Positions 10,730-34,856 are shown, counted from the stretch's first letter. The stretch is 64,000 nt of DNA from an uncultured Gemmatimonadales bacterium (GCA_947259405.1 CAMYLY010000010.1:42142-106141); one strand, 5' to 3'. The notes: a model not told the origin generated them from the letters alone. Made by a program: numbers and translations.

Positions 10730-10760
10730 AACGGCGGCTCCACATGGAGCCGCCGTTTTC
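10730..10760 (+). terminator. Rho-independent terminator
   Basis: AACGGCGGCTCC-ACAT-GGAGCCGCCGTT perfect 12-bp stem followed by TT. Confidence 0.8.
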
Positions 10761-10843
10761 GTATGCGCCATCCTGCGCGAGTGGTACACGTGCGATGCCG
10801 GCCGAGATTGACGACAGGTGACCGGCGCGTCTCGGCGTTCCTC

Positions 10844-12358
<1,515 letters not shown>

Positions 12359-22595: not shown

Positions 22596-23408
22596 CTACG
22601 CCTTGACTGCCACCACCGTGACGTTGTCCGAACCACCGTCCTCCAATGCCGCGTCTACCAGTTGTCGGCAGATCGTATCGGCCGACGTGCCCTGACCGGC
22701 GAGCTCTGCGATCCGTTCGTCCGGCACATGCTTGGTCAGCCCATCGGAACACAGCACCAGCGTGTCGCCGGCTGCAAGGTCGATGAGGCCAATCGAGGGC
22801 TTGATCGTCGACGCCCCCACCGCACTGGACAACACGTGCTCCAATCGTGACCCAGCGGCCTGTTCCTCGGTCATGATCCCTTCATCAACCATCAGCTCGG
22901 CCATCGTCTGATCCCGCGTGAGCTGACGGAACCGCTCTCCTCGCAGGTGATAGGCGCGGCTGTCACCCACATGGATGATATATGCTCGCGGCCACACGAG
23001 AGCTACCATTGTGAGCGTGGTGGCCGGTCCACCCTGCCCAGCGCCGTAGGCCTCGACAATCGCGGTATGCGCTTCGGCCACGGCCTCCTCCAGCTTGCCA
23101 AGGAAGTCGTGCTCGAGCTCGACGTTGTACGTGTAGAAGCATCCGACGGTGTGCTCGATATGTTCCACGAGCGTTCCGATGGCCGTCTCGCTGGCAATCT
23201 CCCCACCGGCGTGCCCGCCGACGCCATCCGCCACGACGAACAAATACGCGTCAGACCCACGTGTGAACGCTGTCTGTACGTCGGGCGCCAGACTCGTGCT
23301 CAAGACATCGATGGATTTGTCGAGCCTGGCTACCAGGTACTGATCTTCGTTGTTCTTCCGGGTCTTTCCAACGTCCGTCAACCCAGCGGCGTCGATCCGT
23401 ACCGCCAC
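22596..23408 (-). CDS. PP2C-family serine/threonine phosphatase
   Basis: DVGKTRKNNEDQ, VADGVGGHAGGEIAS, HVGDSRAYHLR, LCSDGLTKHV, SDNVTVVAV. Confidence 0.95.
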   Translation of the reverse strand: MAVRIDAAGLTDVGKTRKNNEDQYLVARLDKSIDVLSTSLAPDVQTAFTRGSDAYLFVVADGVGGHAGGEIASETAIGTLVEHIEHTVGCFYTYNVELEHDFLGKLEEAVAEAHTAIVEAYGAGQGGPATTLTMVALVWPRAYIIHVGDSRAYHLRGERFRQLTRDQTMAELMVDEGIMTEEQAAGSRLEHVLSSAVGASTIKPSIGLIDLAAGDTLVLCSDGLTKHVPDERIAELAGQGTSADTICRQLVDAALEDGGSDNVTVVAVKA

Positions 23409-23409
23409 G

Positions 23410-23913
23410 TCAGCCTCCCAGCATTTGGGCGGTCAGCCATTCGAACGCCTTGTCCACCGCTTCGCCCGTCTTCGCGCTCGTGTGGAAGGGATTCCAGCCA
23501 CGGTCGGTGAGCGCGGCCAAGTCGTCGCTGCGGAGTTGCCAGTCATTTTGGAGATCGTGTTTGTTGAGTGCGACGGCCGACGGCACGGCTCCCACAACGG
23601 CATTTGCCAAGTCTTGGAGCTGGAAGATCTGGTCGAACGTTTCCCTTCGGGTACCGTCGATGACGAAGAGAATGCCAGAGGCTCCACGTATGTAGCTTGG
23701 CGAAACCTCCTGCTCCTCTGTCCGGCCCTCGATATCCCAGAGCATGAGATTAGCCTCCGTATCCCCGATCGCCACGGACTTGCGGTCGACCTTGACGCCG
23801 ATCGTGGAGTGGTATTTCTCGGAGAACTGCGTATGCACGAACTGTCGCACGAGGCTGGTTTTGCCCGTTCCGGCAACTCCCACCATGCACACCTTCTTCT
23901 GCACGACGCCCAT
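23410..23913 (-). CDS. Ras/Rab-like small GTPase (paralogue 1)
   Basis: G1 GVAGTGKTS, switch I YHSTIGVKV, G3 WDIEGR, G4 NKHD, G5 TSAK; stop adjoins PP2C start. Confidence 0.93.
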   Translation of the reverse strand: MGVVQKKVCMVGVAGTGKTSLVRQFVHTQFSEKYHSTIGVKVDRKSVAIGDTEANLMLWDIEGRTEEQEVSPSYIRGASGILFVIDGTRRETFDQIFQLQDLANAVVGAVPSAVALNKHDLQNDWQLRSDDLAALTDRGWNPFHTSAKTGEAVDKAFEWLTAQMLGG

Positions 23914-23963
23914 ATGAAGCCGGTATTCTCCTCGCAGGTGAACCACGTGGTCAGGCGACTGAA

Positions 23964-24015: not shown

Positions 24016-24471
24016 TTACGCTGCCTGCAACTCGGACGTGCAGTTGGGGCAACGCGTCGCCTTGATGGCCACGGTCGAAAGACAGTGCGGACAATCTCTC
24101 TTGTCCGGTGGCGGTGGAGCGGCCTCTTCCTTCTTTTGCATCTTCATCAATGAGCGAATCATCATGAAGACGGCAAATGCGACGATGATGAAGCTGACTA
24201 TGTTGTCAATGAAGACCCCGTAGTTCACGGTCACGGCACCAGCTTCCTGCGCGGCGGCCAGCGTCGCGTAGGGGCCGGCAGCGGTTCCTTCCTTCAACGT
24301 CAGAAACAGGTCGGAGAACGTCACGTTGCCGAGCAGCAATCCGATCGGCGGCATCAAGACGTCGGAGACCATCGATTTGACGATCGTCCCGAAGGCGCCA
24401 CCAATGATGATGCCAACGGCCATGTCCACGACGTTGCCGCGCATGGCAAAATCTTTGAAGTCCTTGAGCAT
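24016..24471 (-). CDS. mscL: Large-conductance mechanosensitive channel MscL with C-terminal zinc ribbon
   Basis: MLKDFKDFAMRGNVVDMAVGIIIGGAFGTIVKSMVSDVLMPPIGLLLG; C-terminus CPHC...CPNC. Confidence 0.96.
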   Translation of the reverse strand: MLKDFKDFAMRGNVVDMAVGIIIGGAFGTIVKSMVSDVLMPPIGLLLGNVTFSDLFLTLKEGTAAGPYATLAAAQEAGAVTVNYGVFIDNIVSFIIVAFAVFMMIRSLMKMQKKEEAAPPPPDKRDCPHCLSTVAIKATRCPNCTSELQAA

Positions 24472-24550: not shown

Positions 24551-25999
24551 TTAGTTGGAAATCCGACGCAATTCTACGCGTCGGTTCTCTGCACGGCCAG
24601 CACGAGTACCATTGTCGGCAATGGGTTGATCCGGACCATACCCGCGCGCCTCCATGCGGTTGGCAGCGACGCCTCGGGAGATCAGGTATTGCATGACCGA
24701 CTCAGCACGTGCCTGGGACAATGCCACATTCCCGGTACGCGACCCTGTGTTATCGGTGTGTCCGCCGACTTCGACGCGAATGCCACTGTTGGCCACCAAC
24801 GTCTGGGCCACGGTGTTCAACGTCTCACGTGCCTCCGCGGTGAGTTCGGCGCTGCTCGTGGCGAAGTTCACGCCCTCCAGCACGATCGTCGTTGCCTCTT
24901 CGGCGAAGAGCACCGGGCAACCGACCGGGTCAACGTCGGTATTCGGTGCAGTCGACGGGCACCGGTCGATCCCGTTTGCCACACCATCGTTGTCACTGTC
25001 TATCGGACAGCCGTCGGTGTTCACCTCGGCGCCGCGTGGAGTGCTGGGGCAACGATCCGCCGCATCCGCTACGCCGTCTCCGTCGTTGTCGCGCGCGCAT
25101 CCGTTGGCATCGACCGCCGTTCCCTGGGGAGTGTTCGGGCAACGGTCGGCCGAGTCGGCCACGCCGTCACCATCTGCGTCCCGAGGACACCCGGTGGCGT
25201 CCACAGCCGTACCGGCGGGCGTGTTCGCGCAGCGGTCCATCGAGTCGCGGACGCCGTCGCGGTCCGTATCGAGCGCGCACCCGTTCGAATCGACCCGCTC
25301 GCCGCTCGGCGTGTCCGGACACCGGTCCCGCATGTTCGTGACTCCGTCACGATCATTGTCCAACGCGCATCCCGACATATCGACTTGCTCGTTCGCTGCC
25401 GTGTTCGGGCAGTCGTCCGCGCTGTCTGGGACGCCATCCATGTCGGTATCAGCGGGCGATCCACCGCCGAGCATGTAGCTGAGACCGAACTGCGCTCCAA
25501 TGTTCCAGTCACTGCTGGCGCCTGTAATTTGAGAAGGCATGAAATCAGCCAACCCCTCGATCCGGAGCGACAGCGCGTCGGTCAGCCAATAGCGCAAACC
25601 GAGCAACGCGTTTGCCCCGTTGTCGGAAGCGTCCGCGTCCTTGCCGTACTCGTTGTGGACGAAGCCTGCACCGAGGAGCACCGCGGCCTTCTCGCTGATG
25701 GGCGCGTTGTATACCAGCCGTGCGTGCAGCGGAATGTACGAGATGCTCCCGGTGCCGCCGTCGGGCTTGGTCGGTGTATATGAGGCAGTGGCCTCGAGCT
25801 CCAGGTTCTTAAGAAAGAAGACTCCGACCCGACCACCAAAGCCGGGGCGATCGGAGAGCGTTAGGTCGCTATCGAAGAAGGTGTAGCGGCCGAAGATCCC
25901 AGCCTCAAAGGTCCCCTGGCTTTGGGCGTTCATGGGCTCAGCCAACGCGACGACCGCAACGGTCAGGGCGAGTGCCTTGCCGAATGTCTTCACCTGCAT
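24551..25999 (-). CDS. OmpA-family outer-membrane protein with TSP3 repeats
   Basis: Signal peptide, OmpA-like barrel, six ~26-aa D-x-DxDGVxDxxDxCPxT repeats, C-terminal OmpA domain (VEVGGHTDNTGSRTGNVALSQARAESVMQYL). Confidence 0.93.
   Translation of the reverse strand: MQVKTFGKALALTVAVVALAEPMNAQSQGTFEAGIFGRYTFFDSDLTLSDRPGFGGRVGVFFLKNLELEATASYTPTKPDGGTGSISYIPLHARLVYNAPISEKAAVLLGAGFVHNEYGKDADASDNGANALLGLRYWLTDALSLRIEGLADFMPSQITGASSDWNIGAQFGLSYMLGGGSPADTDMDGVPDSADDCPNTAANEQVDMSGCALDNDRDGVTNMRDRCPDTPSGERVDSNGCALDTDRDGVRDSMDRCANTPAGTAVDATGCPRDADGDGVADSADRCPNTPQGTAVDANGCARDNDGDGVADAADRCPSTPRGAEVNTDGCPIDSDNDGVANGIDRCPSTAPNTDVDPVGCPVLFAEEATTIVLEGVNFATSSAELTAEARETLNTVAQTLVANSGIRVEVGGHTDNTGSRTGNVALSQARAESVMQYLISRGVAANRMEARGYGPDQPIADNGTRAGRAENRRVELRRISN
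24915..25455 (-). repeat. Six coding tandem TSP3 (calcium-binding type) repeats, ~78 bp period
   Basis: Consensus DxDxDGVxDxxDRCPxTPxGxxVDxxGC repeated six times. Confidence 0.85.
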
Positions 26000-26049
26000 C
26001 TGCAACTCCTTGCACAATTGAAGTCCAGGACGAATCGGAGGCGTGGAAG

Positions 26050-26174: not shown

Positions 26175-27590
26175 CTAGCGCAGGTTGTACTTCTTGAGCT
26201 TGCGGTAGAGCGTCGTGCGCCCAATGCCGAGGTCCCGCACGACACGCGTGAGGTTGCCACCGTGGCGCGCCATGGCCGCCGCGATGGCCTCGCGCTCAAG
26301 GGCCTCGAGCGTTTGTGTTTGGCCCGCTCCCGTCTCGGCGAGTGCCGGACGCGACTGGGCAGCGGAAGGCTCAACGCCGGCCGTGTCGGCTCTGGCCTCT
26401 CTGACGCGGGGCGGAAGGTGTTGAGGCTCGATTGGCGCGCCACCCGACTCGACCGATGCACGCTCGAGCGCGTTTTCCAACTCGCGGACGTTCCCTGGCC
26501 AGCGGTACCGGACGAGCGCATCCAGCGCCTCAGCCCCGAGTTCAACGGTCGGGACACCCAGCTTCTGGGCGGCCTGCATGAGGAAGTGTCTCGCCAGTGC
26601 AGGGATGTCGGTGGGTCGATCGCGCAGCGGCGGCACGTCCACCTCCATCACAGCGATGCGGAAGTAGAGATCCTCGCGGAATCGTCCTTCGCGCACCTCC
26701 AACGGCAGATCGCGGTGGGTGGCGGCCACCAGCCGGAAGTCGGACGTGATTTGCGACGAGCCGCCCACGCGCTGGAACGTGCGGTCCTGAAGGACCCGAA
26801 GCAGCTTGGCCTGGAGACTCTGGCTCAGCTCTCCAATCTCGTCGAGGAAGACCGTGCCACCGTTGGCGCGCTCGAACGCACCGATCCGACGGTTAGTTGC
26901 GCCGGTGAACGCGCCCTTCTCATGGCCAAACAATTCGGATTCCTGCAATGACTCAGGAATGGCGGCACAGTTCAGCGGCACGAGCAAGCCCTCGTGCCGT
27001 GAACTCTCCCTGTGGATGGCCTGAGCAACCAGCTCCTTGCCCGTCCCGCTCTCCCCTTGGATGAGCACTGTAATGTCGCTCAGCGCCAAACGGTCAAGTT
27101 GGCGAAACAGCGTCTTCATGCCGGGCGCGGACCCGATGATCCCGGCAAAGCCGCTCCCTTCGGCTTCCCGTTGCAGCTGCCGGATACGCACCTTCATCTG
27201 TGCGTGCTCGACGGCGTGCCCGACCGCGGTCACAAGCTTGGTGCGGTCAACCGGCTTGACGAAGTAGTCCCATGCACCGGCCTTCATGGCCTTGACCGCA
27301 CTGTCGACGTCCGTATGGGCGGTGGCCACGAGGACGGGGAGCCACGGGTGGTGGGCCTGGACGCGCGTGAGGGTCTCCATCCCGTCCATACCCGGCATGC
27401 TCAAATCCAGGCAGATCGTATCGGGTACCGCCTCGGTGAGAGCCGTCAGACATGGCTCGCCGTCGTGGAACACGCGGACCTCGTGGCCCTCGTCCTCCAG
27501 CCAGCGCTGCTGCACCTCGCAAAGGAGGGCGTCGTCGTCGACGACGAACACCAGTCCGGTGGCTCCGGAGTCGCCACGGGATGGCGTCAT
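26175..27590 (-). CDS. NtrC/ZraR-type sigma-54-dependent response regulator
   Basis: Receiver ([15 protein letters not shown]...[11 protein letters not shown]...PVLVATAH...FVKPVD), AAA+ ([30 protein letters not shown]), Fis-type HTH C-terminus. Confidence 0.96.
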
Positions 27591-27766: not shown

Positions 27767-27781
27767 TGGCCCTGGAATTGC
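27767..27781 (+). promoter_or_regulatory. Weak sigma-54-like -24/-12 element
   Basis: TGGCCCT-GGAA-TTGC: TGGC and TTGC at exact spacing, central bases off consensus; very close to the start codon. Confidence 0.3.
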
Positions 27782-27794
27782 GTTGGCCCAACCC

Positions 27795-28136
27795 ATGTCA
27801 CGCAAGTCCGGTGATTCGAATCCCGAACGCGTTGTGTTCACATTCGATCGCACCATCGCCGACCTGGTTCCCCGGTTTCTCACTCGATGCGGTGATCGAC
27901 TCTCGAGCATCGAGCGCCACCTGGAGGACGGCGACATGGACGCCATCGAGATGATTGGCCTCGAACTCGTGGGCGCAGGGAAGCCGTTCGGCTTTGCCCG
28001 CATCTCCACGGTGGGGCGCGAGATCGTAATCGGCGCCCAGGGGGACAATGCCGACGATGTTCGCCTCGCCGTCGCGAGTCTGCGTAACCATTTGGAGGCG
28101 TTGGCCGCCATTCACCCAGAAGAGCCCGCTCCGTAG
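27795..28136 (+). CDS. Hpt-like protein lacking the phospho-accepting histidine
   Basis: IEMIGLELVGAGKPFGFARISTVGREIVIGA resembles the Hpt pattern IxxIGHxLKGxGxxFGFxxISxIGxxIE, with Leu at the His position. Confidence 0.55.
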   Translation: MSRKSGDSNPERVVFTFDRTIADLVPRFLTRCGDRLSSIERHLEDGDMDAIEMIGLELVGAGKPFGFARISTVGREIVIGAQGDNADDVRLAVASLRNHLEALAAIHPEEPAP

Positions 28137-28223
28137 CACGCCTTTTGCGTTAGGTCCCGTGGTGTATCTTTGGCGGGATACAACGTAAGCCGTTCTCACT
28201 AATAACGATGCGTGGCTGGTACG

Positions 28224-28724
28224 ATGGCAAAGAAACAAGCAGGGCAACGGCGCCAGGCTGGGGGCAACTCGAACTCAACCATACCTGAGACTGGCGAGAA
28301 TCTCGAGCAAGTTCGCGAGCTCCTCTTTGGCGGCAACCTGCGGCTCTTCGAGGCACGGATTACCGACCTCGAAAAGCGCATGCGCCGCGAACATGCGGAG
28401 CTCACCGACGCCACTGACGCGCGGTTTGAGAGCCTCGAGGAGCACGTGGCGAACGAACTGGCCGCGGTGGGCCAGCGGTTCGATACGAACAAGAAGGGGC
28501 AGTCCGACTCGCTCAAGGCTGTCGAGAAGGAGCTCAAGTCGGTGAGTCGAAAACTCGAGCAACGCTTGCTCAAGCTGCAAGAACAGGCCGACGAGATCAT
28601 GGCGATCCTGCAGGAGCGCACGGACGACTTGCAGGCACGCAAGGCCGATTCCGCGGCCCTCGCCACGTTGTTCGAAGAGATGGCGGAGCGCATCGCCGAC
28701 CTCGGGCCGGCAGGGGAACAATAG
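28224..28724 (+). CDS. Coiled-coil protein
   Basis: Long charged heptad-rich helix (VEKELKSVSRKLEQRLLKLQEQADEIMAILQERTDDL); 14 nt from next gene. Confidence 0.75.
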   Translation: MAKKQAGQRRQAGGNSNSTIPETGENLEQVRELLFGGNLRLFEARITDLEKRMRREHAELTDATDARFESLEEHVANELAAVGQRFDTNKKGQSDSLKAVEKELKSVSRKLEQRLLKLQEQADEIMAILQERTDDLQARKADSAALATLFEEMAERIADLGPAGEQ

Positions 28725-28737
28725 GACCGCCCAACAC

Positions 28738-30519
28738 TTGACCAGCACCGGTAGACCGCCACTCGACGCCGTCGGGCCCGCCAGCGAGCCTCCGCCGATG
28801 CCAGCACGAGGCAGCGCCGACGAACTGGCTGAACTGCGTCGATTGCTCGTCGGGGCGGAACGCGCCGAGATTGACAAGATCAAGGCGCGGCTCGGAGAGA
28901 TGGGGCTTACGGTCGACGCCCTGAGCGACCTGCTCCCTGCAGCGATCGAAGCACGCAACCGGCGCGACGATCGCCTCGGCCAGGCGCTGTCGCCAACGAT
29001 CGAACACTCCCTGCGGGCATCAGTCCAGCGAAATCCACGGGCTCTCGTCGACGCCATCTTCCCGGTGATGGGGCCGGCCATCCGGAAGGCGATTACTGAG
29101 GCGATGAGCGGGCTCATCCAGAGCCTGAATACCGCCATCGAGCACAGCGTGTCGTGGCGGGGCCTCAAGTGGCGTATGGAGGCTCTCAGAGCGGGCGAGT
29201 CATTCGCGACCGTGGTGCTGCGTCACACATTGCTCTTCAAGGTCGACCAGGTCTTCCTCTTCCACCGCGAGACCGGACTGCTGCTTTGCGAAGCCATCGA
29301 TCAGGAAGCGCTACAGCAAAACCCGGATCTTGTCTCGGCCATGGCCACGGCGCTCAAGGACTTTGCGCGAGACTCATTCAATACCGGTGAGGCGGAGGAC
29401 CTCTCCGTCTTCAAGATCGGTGAGCAGGTCGTGTTGGTGGAGCAGGGGCCGCGTGGCACTCTCATGGCGCTGGTCCAGGGGCACGCACCCAATGAGGTGC
29501 GAACCGTGCTGCAGGCTGTTCTCGAGGGTATCCACAGCGACTTCATGGGCGAGCTCGAGACGTTCGACGGCGACGCGGCGCCGTTCGAATTAGCCAAGCC
29601 ATCACTCGAGCGCGCCATGCAAATGCGCGTAGCCGATCAAGGCAAGCGTGGGATCTCACCGGTCCTGGGGATAGGGCTAGCAGTGCTCGTGGGAGCGATC
29701 GCCCTGTGGCTCTTCTTCTCGATTCGGACGGACCGGCGGTGGGATCGGTTCGTGGCCTCCGTGCACGCCGAACCGGGTGTGGTGGTTGTTGACGCGACTC
29801 GGGACGGCGGAACGTTTCTGGTTTCCGGCCTCCGGGACCCGAGCGCGGCCGATCTCTCGTCCCTCGTGGCAAGTTCAAACCTCCCGGCGGAAGAGATCGC
29901 ATTCTCGTGGGAACCCTATGTGTCGTTGGATTCGACCATCGTCGCGCGCCGTGCCGAAGCAGCACTGGGGCGGGCGACCGTATCCTACCGAACGAGCGGT
30001 GACACCTTATACGCGGTTGGCGAGGCGTCGAACGCCTGGATCGAGCGGGCGCGCCGTATTGCGCCGTCGCTGCCCGGCGTCGCTACGCTCGATGTGGGTG
30101 CTCTCATCGATCTCGACCTCCGTGCTCTCCGCGCACTGGCGGATTCGATCGAGGATGAGCGCATCACGTTCGCCGTCGGCAGTGCCCAACTCGGTTTTGA
30201 TCGACGACGGGTCGTGGCCGACGTGGGCACCCGGATCGACGCGATGGTGTCCCGAGCGGCCGAGCTGGATCACGTCGGCATCGTGGAGTTGATAGGCCGT
30301 GCCGATAGTGTTGGCGCCGAGAGCCAGAACCAGTTGTTGAGTGAAGCGCGGGCGATGGTTGTGCGTGATGCTTTGCGGGCGGAGGGTGTGCAGGGGGCCC
30401 TCGAGGCGACCGGGGTTGGCAGCACGAGCCCGCTGATGATCGCGGGAGGTGGACCGGCCCTCAATCGCAGCGTGTCCTTCCGCGTCCGTCTCGAACCCGC
30501 TGGTGACGAGTCGCGATGA
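28738..30519 (+). CDS. Transmembrane OmpA-family protein with cytoplasmic roadblock/longin-like segment
   Basis: N-terminal ~300 aa without signal peptide, single TM (ISPVLGIGLAVLVGAIALWLFFSI), periplasmic region, C-terminal OmpA-like domain (VELIGRADSVGAESQNQLLSEARAMVVRDALRAEGV). Confidence 0.85.
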   Translation: MTSTGRPPLDAVGPASEPPPMPARGSADELAELRRLLVGAERAEIDKIKARLGEMGLTVDALSDLLPAAIEARNRRDDRLGQALSPTIEHSLRASVQRNPRALVDAIFPVMGPAIRKAITEAMSGLIQSLNTAIEHSVSWRGLKWRMEALRAGESFATVVLRHTLLFKVDQVFLFHRETGLLLCEAIDQEALQQNPDLVSAMATALKDFARDSFNTGEAEDLSVFKIGEQVVLVEQGPRGTLMALVQGHAPNEVRTVLQAVLEGIHSDFMGELETFDGDAAPFELAKPSLERAMQMRVADQGKRGISPVLGIGLAVLVGAIALWLFFSIRTDRRWDRFVASVHAEPGVVVVDATRDGGTFLVSGLRDPSAADLSSLVASSNLPAEEIAFSWEPYVSLDSTIVARRAEAALGRATVSYRTSGDTLYAVGEASNAWIERARRIAPSLPGVATLDVGALIDLDLRALRALADSIEDERITFAVGSAQLGFDRRRVVADVGTRIDAMVSRAAELDHVGIVELIGRADSVGAESQNQLLSEARAMVVRDALRAEGVQGALEATGVGSTSPLMIAGGGPALNRSVSFRVRLEPAGDESR

Positions 30520-31016
30520 TCCAGCGAAAGCTGTGCATGCTCGGCGCCTTTGCCGTCGGCAAGACCAGCCTCGTTCAACAATTTGTGCACAGCATCTTCG
30601 CTGAGCGGTACCACACCACGGTCGGGGTCAAGGTCGACCGCAAGGACGTATCCGTCGATGGCCAGGACGTACGGTTGCTGTTATGGGATCTCGCCGGCGA
30701 GGACGACTTCAATCACCTTCCCGTATCATATCTGCGCGGCTCGGCAGGCCTCTTCTTCGTGGTCGATGGAACACGTCGCGAGACGGTCGAGTCCGTGACG
30801 CGCCTCCGTGACCTGGCGCTAGCCACGGTCGGGGACGTGCCAAGCTTGGTCGCGATCAACAAGGCGGACCTCACCGATGACTGGGAGCTGGATGGGGGTG
30901 TGAGAGATTCCCTGCAAGAAGCAGGGCTCCACGCCTTCGAAACCAGCGCTAGGACTCGGCAGGGCGTCGAGGCAGCATTCCACTGGCTTGCGCACCAGAT
31001 GATCGAGCCTGCATGA
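30516..31016 (+). CDS. Ras/Rab-like small GTPase (paralogue 2)
   Basis: G1 GAFAVGKTS, switch I YHTTVGVKV, G3 WDLAGED, G4 NKAD, G5 TSAR; ATGA overlap with both neighbours. Confidence 0.94.
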   Translation: MIQRKLCMLGAFAVGKTSLVQQFVHSIFAERYHTTVGVKVDRKDVSVDGQDVRLLLWDLAGEDDFNHLPVSYLRGSAGLFFVVDGTRRETVESVTRLRDLALATVGDVPSLVAINKADLTDDWELDGGVRDSLQEAGLHAFETSARTRQGVEAAFHWLAHQMIEPA

Positions 31017-32515
31017 GCAAATTGCCGGACCGAGTTGTCGCGCTTCTCAACGATCGTACGTACAGCGAGTATCGCCCGGCCTACCTTCTCCTCGACAATT
31101 CGGGGCTCGTGCACGACACAGGTGGGCTGACGGGAACCTATGGGCTCGGGACCCTCGGACGAGGCGACAACGCGATGGATCTCCTCCCTGTGCTCGAGTC
31201 GTTTCTCCCCGTGCGAAGCGATGGAGAGGTACTGCACGCCGTGACGACGCCGTCGGGTGTGGTTGTCGACCTGTGGGCCGCGAGCGAGCACGATCGGACG
31301 TGGGTGGTCCTGCTCGATGTATCGCATCAGGTGATGCAGCAAGCGCACTTCCAGCAACAAGCCAACGAAGCACGCCTGCTTGCGTATCGTGACGACGCCA
31401 CGGCAACGGAGCTTCGCACGCTCCCGTCGGTCCTGGCGGCTCTCGGCGTTGTGGTGTTCGCCCGACGCCCCGATGGGTCGTTCGGGGTCGTTGGTGGCTC
31501 ACCGGGGTGGGTCGCAGAACTCTGGCCGAGCGAAGCGACGTCATTTCGACCTCAGGAGCACTCGCCGTTTCTCGAGCACTTCCTCACGGAGGCTGACGAG
31601 TGTTGGCGCGGTGTGGGTGGTGGTCTGCGGCGTTCAGGGTTGTGGACGGAGGTGGACGGCACAGGCGTGGAACGCCACCTCACCGCGTGGGCGGTGCGGT
31701 CGGAGCAGCCGTTGCTGGTGATCAGCGACGCAACGCAATCGTATCGGGAGCAGTCGTCCGTCATGCAACAGGCACGCGAGCAGGCGCTCGTGCACAGCCG
31801 CCTCCTAAAGGAAATCGAAAAGAAGGACGTCTTGTTGCACAGCATCGTTCACGACCTGCGCAGCCCGATGATATCCGTCCACAGCACGCTGCAGCTTCTG
31901 GAAGCGGATGCGATTTCCGAACGATCACAGCAGTTGGTTGCAGCGAGCCGCAGCCAGCTCGAGCGACAAGACCATCTCATCAAATCCATCCTCGATGTGT
32001 TTGCCGCCGACGCACGCGGGCTGGAGCCGACGGCTCACCATGGACCGGTCGACTTGTTGGCGAGCGCCCGCGAAACCATCGAAACATTCAACCCGGCCTT
32101 CATGCTGAAACGTGCGGAGTTGGGACTGACGGTTGAGGGAGATGCGACTGCACCGTGGCTGGTGCCGGGTGACCGTATGCGGTTGGTGCGCGTCTACGCG
32201 AATCTGATCGAAAACGCCCTGCGGTATTCGCGCCGCGGTCAGATCGTACGTATCCGGCTGAGTGTCGACGGTGACGACTACCTCACTGAGGTCGAGGATC
32301 AGGGTCCGGGTGTGCCATCCGAGCTGGCGTCGCAGGTCTTCGATCGCTTTGCCCGCGCGGGTGGCCGAGCTGGCACGGCTGGGCTGGGTCTCCACTTCTG
32401 TCGCATCATGATTGAAGGGTGGGGTGGCACCATTGGCCAATACAATCGCGAGGACGGCGGATCGTGCTTCTGGTTCAAGCTCCCGCGCACAGAGGCGTCG
32501 GAAACGGAGACCTAG
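31013..32515 (+). CDS. Sensor histidine kinase
   Basis: H-box HSIVHDLRSPM, N-box NLIENALRYS, G1 DQGPGVP, G2 GTAGLGLHFC; ATGA overlap with GTPase; no obvious TM. Confidence 0.93.
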   Translation: MSKLPDRVVALLNDRTYSEYRPAYLLLDNSGLVHDTGGLTGTYGLGTLGRGDNAMDLLPVLESFLPVRSDGEVLHAVTTPSGVVVDLWAASEHDRTWVVLLDVSHQVMQQAHFQQQANEARLLAYRDDATATELRTLPSVLAALGVVVFARRPDGSFGVVGGSPGWVAELWPSEATSFRPQEHSPFLEHFLTEADECWRGVGGGLRRSGLWTEVDGTGVERHLTAWAVRSEQPLLVISDATQSYREQSSVMQQAREQALVHSRLLKEIEKKDVLLHSIVHDLRSPMISVHSTLQLLEADAISERSQQLVAASRSQLERQDHLIKSILDVFAADARGLEPTAHHGPVDLLASARETIETFNPAFMLKRAELGLTVEGDATAPWLVPGDRMRLVRVYANLIENALRYSRRGQIVRIRLSVDGDDYLTEVEDQGPGVPSELASQVFDRFARAGGRAGTAGLGLHFCRIMIEGWGGTIGQYNREDGGSCFWFKLPRTEASETET

Positions 32516-33362: not shown

Positions 33363-34856
33363 TTATGACTTCCGCATCGAGTCGGTCCAACGCTGAAGCT
33401 GTTTGGCCGCCAGGTCGCGACCGCCAATCCCAAAGGCGATCGCTGCAGCCACCGCGATGGCACCGAGCGTGAGTCCAAAAGCCAACGTGATGATCTCATC
33501 AGCAACCCCAAGTTCCCGCAGTGCCATGGCCCCGGAGAGCACGAGAATCGCTGCACGGGCGATGATGGCGAGCATACCGGCCTGTGGGTTGCCCCCGGCC
33601 TCGATGGCGTCACCGGCGAGATTGGCCAGGTACATCCCGGCGCCAAAGATGATCAGGCCTACCAGGAGGTGGCCGCCAAACTCGATCAGCTGCGCGAAGA
33701 TCTCTGACAAAGTCGCAAATCCGAGCATGCCGAAGGCTTCGACGATCGCGAACAGAAGGATCGCCGCCATCAGGACATAGCCGACGATGCTCGACGGGTC
33801 ACGCTCTTCAGGAGCTGACGACACGTTGAGGCCTAGCTTCCCGATGAGATTGTTGAAGCCCACTCCGCGTAACAAGCCCGACACGAGGCCGGACACGACC
33901 TTCGCGACCACAAACGCCACGACGACGATCAGAGCTGCTCCAAAGAGTGCCGGGAGCGCCGCCAGCATGGTGTCGAGCATGTTGGAAGCGGGTTGCGTGA
34001 TGGCGTCCATGCCGAGGGCGTTGAGCGCCGAGACCAACACCGGGATGAGAATGAGTACGTAGGCGACCAGCGCGATCAGGCTCGAGAGCCGCTGCTCACC
34101 GAGTGCCTTGTCGATGCCGACGTTCTCGCTCAGCCGATCCGCCCCGGCAGCCGCCAACAAGCTGGCCAGAATGCGCTGCACGACGCGGGCGACGAACCAG
34201 CCGACGAGCAGGATCGCAGCGGCGCTCACGATGTTCGGGATGTACTGCAGGACCTTGTCGACCATGCCCTGGACGGGCTGCAGGATCCCGGTCAGGCCCA
34301 GGGCCCCGAGGATGGCTGGGAGGAAGAGCAAAAAGACCAACCAGTACACCGCTTCTCCAAGCGACTTGCTGAGTGCGACCGGCGGCTTCCCTTCCGTTCC
34401 TGCCGTTTCACCCACCTTGTCATCTAACTTGGCCTGCGAAAGCAGTTTCGTCGTGATCATCCGCAGCGCTGAGGCAATCACCCAAGCGACGACGATCAGC
34501 ACGATGCCGCCCAACACCTGCGGCGCGAACTCGAACACCCGATTGAGCAACGCGTTGATGGGTTCGGTCAGTACGGTCAGACCCAGTGTCTGGAGGAAGG
34601 CGACCAGGACGAACAGCATCAACGTGTAGAAGACGATCTTGCCAAAGACGTCCTCGACCGCGAACGACGGTTCACCGTCGTCACCCGTGAGCCACGCCGC
34701 GAGTCGGTCATCGAGCGTTGTGCGCTTGAGAGCAGCGCGAACGATGCGCGCGATGATCCACGCCACGACGGTACCGGCGACAAGGATCCCCACAGCGCCC
34801 AGCATGTTCGGAAGGTAGACCTGCACGGACTCCCAGAGTTGTGTTAATGTCTCCAT
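33363..34856 (-). CDS. Conserved-TM-helix-repeat membrane protein (mechanosensitive-channel-like)
   Basis: Repeated LPNMLGAVGILVAGTVVAWIIARIV / APQVLGGIVLIVVAWVIASALR / IPNIVSAAAILLVGWFVARVV / LPALFGAALIVVVAFVVAKVV units. Confidence 0.8.
   Translation of the reverse strand: METLTQLWESVQVYLPNMLGAVGILVAGTVVAWIIARIVRAALKRTTLDDRLAAWLTGDDGEPSFAVEDVFGKIVFYTLMLFVLVAFLQTLGLTVLTEPINALLNRVFEFAPQVLGGIVLIVVAWVIASALRMITTKLLSQAKLDDKVGETAGTEGKPPVALSKSLGEAVYWLVFLLFLPAILGALGLTGILQPVQGMVDKVLQYIPNIVSAAAILLVGWFVARVVQRILASLLAAAGADRLSENVGIDKALGEQRLSSLIALVAYVLILIPVLVSALNALGMDAITQPASNMLDTMLAALPALFGAALIVVVAFVVAKVVSGLVSGLLRGVGFNNLIGKLGLNVSSAPEERDPSSIVGYVLMAAILLFAIVEAFGMLGFATLSEIFAQLIEFGGHLLVGLIIFGAGMYLANLAGDAIEAGGNPQAGMLAIIARAAILVLSGAMALRELGVADEIITLAFGLTLGAIAVAAAIAFGIGGRDLAAKQLQRWTDSMRKS

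Follow-up and report, generated by a model that had tools for sequence, protein, structure and literature searches.

A Group 1 Rup GTPase module with swappable outputs and a putatively wall-anchored membrane protein predicted to contain a longin/roadblock-like domain

We analyzed a 64,000-nucleotide stretch of DNA (the window) from an uncultured Gemmatimonadales bacterium (GCA_947259405.1 CAMYLY010000010.1:42142-106141). It contains a signaling operon in which a Ras/Rab-like GTPase is paired with a membrane protein that appears to be fixed to the cell wall, and with interchangeable output enzymes. The operon almost certainly belongs to the Group 1 Rup systems, a gene neighborhood predicted in 2014 (PMC4316618). 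Our models indicated that the membrane protein, here called the platform, carries a domain resembling the longin/roadblock domains that handle GTPases in eukaryotic cells. This suggests a bacterial counterpart of a eukaryotic switch system. In searches of open-licence papers on Rup, OmpA and longin, we did not find this fold assignment.

The preliminary description had reported five collinear genes at 27795-32515, and this observation is confirmed. All five genes are located on the + strand, and the last three are joined by ATGA overlaps at 30516-30519 and 31013-31016. The first gene (27795-28136) encodes a 113-residue Hpt-like protein. It scores 16.1 bits against the Pfam Hpt profile, below the cut-off of 24.6 bits, and has no His at the phospho-acceptor position, which in our reading of the alignment is Leu here and Asp in L163, a locus in a related genome. 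Its earlier description as degenerate is therefore right. The gene is nevertheless real and not specific to the window, since a homologue (8e-9) is found in the same gene order in L163. The second gene (28212-28724) encodes a coiled-coil protein of a conserved family, identified with a family HMM. The third (28738-30519) encodes the 593-residue platform, with a Pfam OmpA match of 30.5 bits against a cut-off of 27.2 bits. The fourth (30516-31016) encodes a GTPase of 166 residues (Pfam Ras, 8e-30), within the limit of under 240 residues for a Group 1 Rup GTPase. Its G1-G5 motifs are intact, but the Gln of G3 is replaced by Glu (WDLAGE). Over 91 sequences this position is mostly Glu, Arg or Asp. 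The fifth (31013-32515) encodes a histidine kinase with HisKA and HATPase_c, the sequence HDLRSP, and no apparent TM segment. Pfam recognizes Ras, HisKA and HATPase_c, like OmpA, above their cut-offs. The unit also extends outside the region originally described, to a divergent sigma-54 response regulator, a sigma-54-like site and a second Rup GTPase next to a PP2C phosphatase.

The interpretation in the preliminary description is only partly supported. It claimed that no bacterial pathway with this composition had been described. This is not supported, as Wuichet and Sogaard-Andersen (PMC4316618) described exactly these four genes: a coiled coil, an unknown domain followed by an inner-membrane helix and OmpA, the Rup GTPase, and an output protein (kinase or c-di-GMP enzyme) whose N-terminal region has an invariant Gln. 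They noted that these GTPases lack the G3 Gln, are not coupled to MglB and had not been experimentally characterized. The features that we examined are all found here. No Robl_LC7 hit was found among the ten window proteins scanned, and the Robl_LC7 matches listed for the genome lie on two other contigs. Gemmatimonadota was not among the Group 1 phyla listed. The proposals that the genes form a conserved module and that the GTPase and the OmpA fusion are associated are supported, and the association is tight. Motifs of the 593-residue protein said to recur in other phyla, annotated only as OmpA family, do recur, and one RefSeq plasmid copy is annotated only as 'OmpA family protein'. The proposed cell-wall sensing remains a conjecture from the anatomy.

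The module is widespread. A scan of species genomes returned at least 553 relatives of the cytosolic domain of the platform, and the best 80 span about 13 named phyla, counted from record titles. One record titled Klebsiella pneumoniae is likely a mislabelled MAG. Over 88 loci, the coiled-coil gene is immediately upstream of the platform gene in 80 of 81 with room for it, the GTPase gene is immediately downstream in 71 of 78, and an output module was recognized in 74. Seven of the 78 loci lack the GTPase immediately downstream. Among 298 Gemmatimonadota genomes, 17 have the platform and 19 the GTPase, and all 17 have both (Fisher 8e-26, not corrected for relatedness). Association of the two genes outside this genome had been set as a condition beforehand, and it holds. 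A fusion of the GTPase with the platform or with the output domain OUT was sought and not found.

The platform was modeled with AlphaFold2 from 67 sequences (mean pLDDT 82.8). The model shows cytosolic helices, an α/β domain (residues 128-278; 29119-29571), one long helix holding the TM segment (residues 308-344; 29659-29769), a BON-like periplasmic unit (residues 345-467; 29770-30138) and the OmpA peptidoglycan-binding domain (residues 470-587; 30145-30498). The best PDB match of the full-length model is Rv0899, followed by Pal/OmpA domains. Since OmpA matches dominated this search, residues 128-278 were modeled alone (pLDDT 78.3, pTM 0.66). The best match is zeta-COP (E 2.8e-4). All 50 listed PDB matches are longin/roadblock-superfamily chains or complexes that contain them, including AP sigma and mu, TRAPP, GATOR1, Ragulator, Ego3, dynein and axonemal roadblocks, archaeal and bacterial roadblocks, MglB with MglA, Sec22b (TM 0.56/0.65) and Ykt6. 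A longin/roadblock fold is therefore very likely, although it rests on models of moderate confidence, in which the first core helix has a pLDDT of about 65-70.

Sequence methods do not confirm the assignment. The domain in the window protein has no Pfam match, and a few relatives have only sub-threshold hits to Robl_LC7 (best E 0.065) and Fuz_longin (E 0.083) among 25 listed families. Profile-profile comparison with roadblock families did not reach significance. An hhalign comparison with 38 roadblock sequences aligned the same strands and helix, in the right register, but with p = 0.024 only and a probability of 2%. Sequence searches of the PDB with the domain and with OUT found nothing. We claim a similar fold, not proven homology. 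Longin and roadblock domains have been argued to be related, circularly permuted, and to bind GTPases similarly (Zhang and Aravind, PMC3521125). The helix with the most invariant residues (Met202, Ala205, Phe209 and Asp212) is a natural candidate for a contact surface, which is an inference.

A domain map over 93 loci showed that the cytosolic domain and the TM helix are constant. The BON-like unit occurs one to five times, four in rhizobia, and in two Chloroflexota loci the protein stops after the TM helix. This suggests that the core function is at the inner face of the membrane, and that wall attachment is an adjustable addition in bacteria with an outer envelope.

Two unnamed N-terminal domains, here called OUT and OUT2, link the GTPase genes to different enzymes. 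They are fused to class III cyclases (8 of 24 OUT proteins), kinases, SpoIIE phosphatases, sigma-54 activators and HD-domain proteins. In cyanobacteria, a stand-alone OUT gene is followed by an OUT2-kinase gene. In the window, OUT (31013-31393; 2e-37) and OUT2 (31418-31888; 1e-47) are fused in one kinase. OUT2 has one invariant Gln over 31 sequences, which is conserved in the window kinase and is probably the Gln noted in 2014.

The window also contains a second Rup GTPase (23410-23946, - strand; Pfam Ras, 4e-28), directly before a PP2C-type Ser/Thr phosphatase (22596-23408, - strand; Pfam PP2C_2, 3e-11; NCBIfam Stp1-type, 1.5e-53), its proposed output. Such a phosphatase gene directly follows a Rup GTPase gene in at least ten Gemmatimonadota loci and one Acidobacteriota locus. 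The two GTPases are the only strong Ras-family hits in the genome, and a third is weak and partial. In G006, a related genome, one contig carries the regulator, Hpt-like, coiled-coil, GTPase and OUT-OUT2-kinase genes without a platform, while another carries the platform with a coiled coil, a GTPase and PP2C. In a tree containing only Rup-type sequences, without an MglA or eukaryotic outgroup, the kinase-branch GTPase of the window pairs with that of G006 (98/82; the kinase-linked GTPase of L163), and the PP2C-branch GTPase with the PP2C-linked one of G006 (96/79). Thus the GTPase and output travel together, while the platform sits with either branch. All five genomes with two or three GTPases have exactly one platform gene. 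A platform shared by two branches is the simplest reading, but is not proven.

Divergent from the operon is an NtrC-type response regulator (26175-27590, - strand), composed of a receiver, an AAA+ domain with GAFTGA, and HTH_8 (Pfam Sigma54_activat, 4e-69; Response_reg, 1.5e-29). It is the proposed cognate regulator of the kinase, a pairing inferred from synteny. A homologue (9e-186) occupies the same divergent place in L163, and other regulators of this type lie next to the coiled-coil gene in five further Gemmatimonadota loci. A sigma-54-like site, TGGC-N7-TTGC, is found upstream of the first gene in the window (TGGCCCTGGAATTGCG, 27767-27782, + strand) and in L163 (TGGCCCTGGAGTTGCA). Of 20 upstream regions scanned, these score 14.0 and 15.0, and one other scores 14.0. 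The support is moderate, as the motif alone is not rare (3 found in the window, 2.1 expected), conservation is between two genomes only, and a shared 16-mer with at most two mismatches occurred in 10 of 500 shuffles. Sites upstream of the other Gemmatimonadota operons scanned were not convincing. rpoN is present in 8 of 8 relatives examined, but was not found in the window's own genome, which is 3.06 Mb and 61% complete. A transcription start about 12 bases downstream of the site would leave almost no leader before the ATG at 27795, and the start of the first gene is therefore uncertain.

Sequence, synteny and models directly support a conserved unit of coiled coil, membrane protein and Rup GTPase, followed by an output protein that starts with OUT and/or OUT2 or is a PP2C phosphatase. 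They also support the predicted longin/roadblock-like fold in the cytosolic part of the membrane protein, and two GTPase branches with one platform gene in this genome. The mechanism is inferred, and we hold it with moderate confidence. In this view, the platform holds its longin-like domain at the inner face of the cytoplasmic membrane, with BON-like spacers and an OmpA domain gripping peptidoglycan. The longin-like domain would be the docking platform, and probably GAP and/or GEF, of the Rup GTPase, as MglB is for MglA or as longin/roadblock platforms are for Rab, Rag and Arf. Binding of the GTPase by the platform is likely, but in the papers searched we found no binding, GTPase or phenotype data for any member. 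The envelope state (distance or tension between membrane and wall) would alter the platform and so the GTP/GDP state, a step that is only tentative. Nearby genes for MscL, an OmpA-TSP3 porin and an MS-channel-like protein fit an envelope or osmotic role, but are not shown to be linked. The GTPase would then act on OUT/OUT2 of the cytosolic kinase, and the kinase would phosphorylate the NtrC-type regulator, which would activate sigma-54 promoters including the operon's own. This loop is somewhat more probable than not. A second GTPase on the same platform would control the PP2C phosphatase, and the Hpt-like protein, having no His, would be a regulator rather than a relay.

Three other readings are each unlikely but not excluded. 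The platform could be a positional landmark that marks a pole, septum or growth zone and keeps the GTPase and its outputs there, as in MglA polarity control, without sensing the envelope. The fold parallel with MglA/MglB, the immobilizing OmpA anchor, the diversity of outputs and the frequency of platform genes in filamentous cyanobacteria among the 80 loci fit this idea. However, Gemmatimonadota and many other carriers are not known gliders, and a single platform gene would serve two different outputs here. Alternatively, the output protein could be the GAP, with the invariant Gln of OUT2 completing the GTPase active site in trans, as hypothesized in 2014, and the membrane protein only a tether or receptor. 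The missing G3 Gln and the conserved OUT2 Gln are consistent with this. On the other hand, PP2C-linked GTPases also have a G3 without Gln but no OUT/OUT2 gene next to them, and a longin/roadblock-like domain is encoded next to the GTPase in nearly all loci.

The domain could also be an MglB-type roadblock domain that became unrecognizable, in a derived MglA/MglB system. MglB structures are among the matches (ranks 25, 33 and 35), and there are the sub-threshold Robl_LC7 hits. However, TM-scores are higher for the longin proteins Sec22b (0.56) and Ykt6 (0.51) than for MglB (0.37-0.42), the roadblock profile scores are not significant, and the modeled order β-β-α-β-β-β-α-α followed by a TM helix resembles longin SNAREs. 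Ordinary clustering of an OmpA-type envelope stabilizer with unrelated signaling genes is very unlikely. The OmpA domain and the nearby envelope genes would fit it, but the conserved gene order, the co-occurrence of platform and GTPase, and the cytosolic location of the platform's conserved domain argue against it.

A further reading is possible, although somewhat less likely than not. Bacteria of many phyla may run a Rab-like GTPase on a longin-type domain that is membrane-embedded and tied to peptidoglycan, a counterpart of the Rab-longin pairing thought to be eukaryotic. It would be a wall-coupled switchboard, in which one platform serves several GTPases, each wired to a different plug-in output. 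The longin-like domain encoded beside these GTPases, in a protein that appears to grip the cell wall, provides a concrete candidate. It makes testable how the GTPases are controlled and whether GTPase-longin pairing predates eukaryotes. It would also be a way for envelope state to reach kinases, cyclases and phosphatases through a G protein.

Several known systems share parts of this arrangement. The eukaryotic longin/roadblock platforms (TRAPP, Ragulator, Sec22/Ykt6, AP sigma and zeta-COP) share the predicted fold and the pairing with Ras-superfamily GTPases, but no sequence homology is detectable and descent cannot be claimed. Rv0899/ArfA and the Pal/OmpA C-terminal proteins share the periplasmic BON-like plus OmpA architecture, but lack the cytosolic longin-like domain and the GTPase operon. 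In MglA/MglB of Myxococcus xanthus, a Ras-like GTPase has a partner of similar predicted fold. MglB is soluble, whereas the domain here is fused to TM, BON-like and OmpA parts and does not match Robl_LC7. The actinobacterial conservons (Cvn systems) also place a small GTPase beside a histidine kinase in one operon, with a roadblock/longin-type partner. Among the proteins of our operon, no roadblock (CvnB) or CvnC family was found by profile searches, the GTPase partner appears to be membrane- and wall-anchored, and the kinase carries OUT/OUT2 and shows no TM segment. Compared to the Group 1 Rup systems described in 2014, the window additionally contains a second GTPase with PP2C, a divergent sigma-54 regulator and an Hpt-like gene. 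The unknown domain is now given a predicted fold, and PP2C, SpoIIE, class III cyclase and sigma-54 outputs are added to the described kinase and c-di-GMP outputs.

Several genes with possible links to the cell envelope are located near the operon and the second GTPase. The mscL gene (24016-24471) lies on the same strand just upstream of the second GTPase and the PP2C phosphatase, with a gap of about 70 bases. Judging from this arrangement in the window alone, mscL, the GTPase, PP2C and a DUF937 gene could form one transcript. A second mechanosensitive-channel-like gene is found close to the operon (33363-34856). It encodes a 497-aa membrane protein with four MS_channel_1st_1 repeats (Pfam 2.9e-52). 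In addition, an outer-membrane beta-barrel protein with thrombospondin type 3 repeats and a C-terminal OmpA domain is encoded between the two GTPase branches (24551-26000).

In locus L073 from Thermoanaerobaculia (Acidobacteriota), the GTPase (10734-11213) nests inside the Gemmatimonadota PP2C-type clade, and it also has a PP2C partner. This suggests transfer of the module between phyla. Locus L049 (8926-12381), on a contig titled Klebsiella pneumoniae MAG, carries the module with an Acidobacteriota-like GTPase, and is probably from a mislabelled or mixed bin. The orphan Rup GTPases of genomes G001 and G032 (locus L164, 6198-6734, and locus L165, 6056-6718) form their own clade (99/92), and have no recognised output next door.

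The output of the module also differs among loci. In locus L092 (11239-12435), and in L077, L085 and L112 (Variovorax), the output is an OUT domain fused to a SpoIIE-type phosphatase. The assignment was checked with Pfam for L092, whereas for the other loci it is based on a family count. This is a second phosphatase type besides PP2C.
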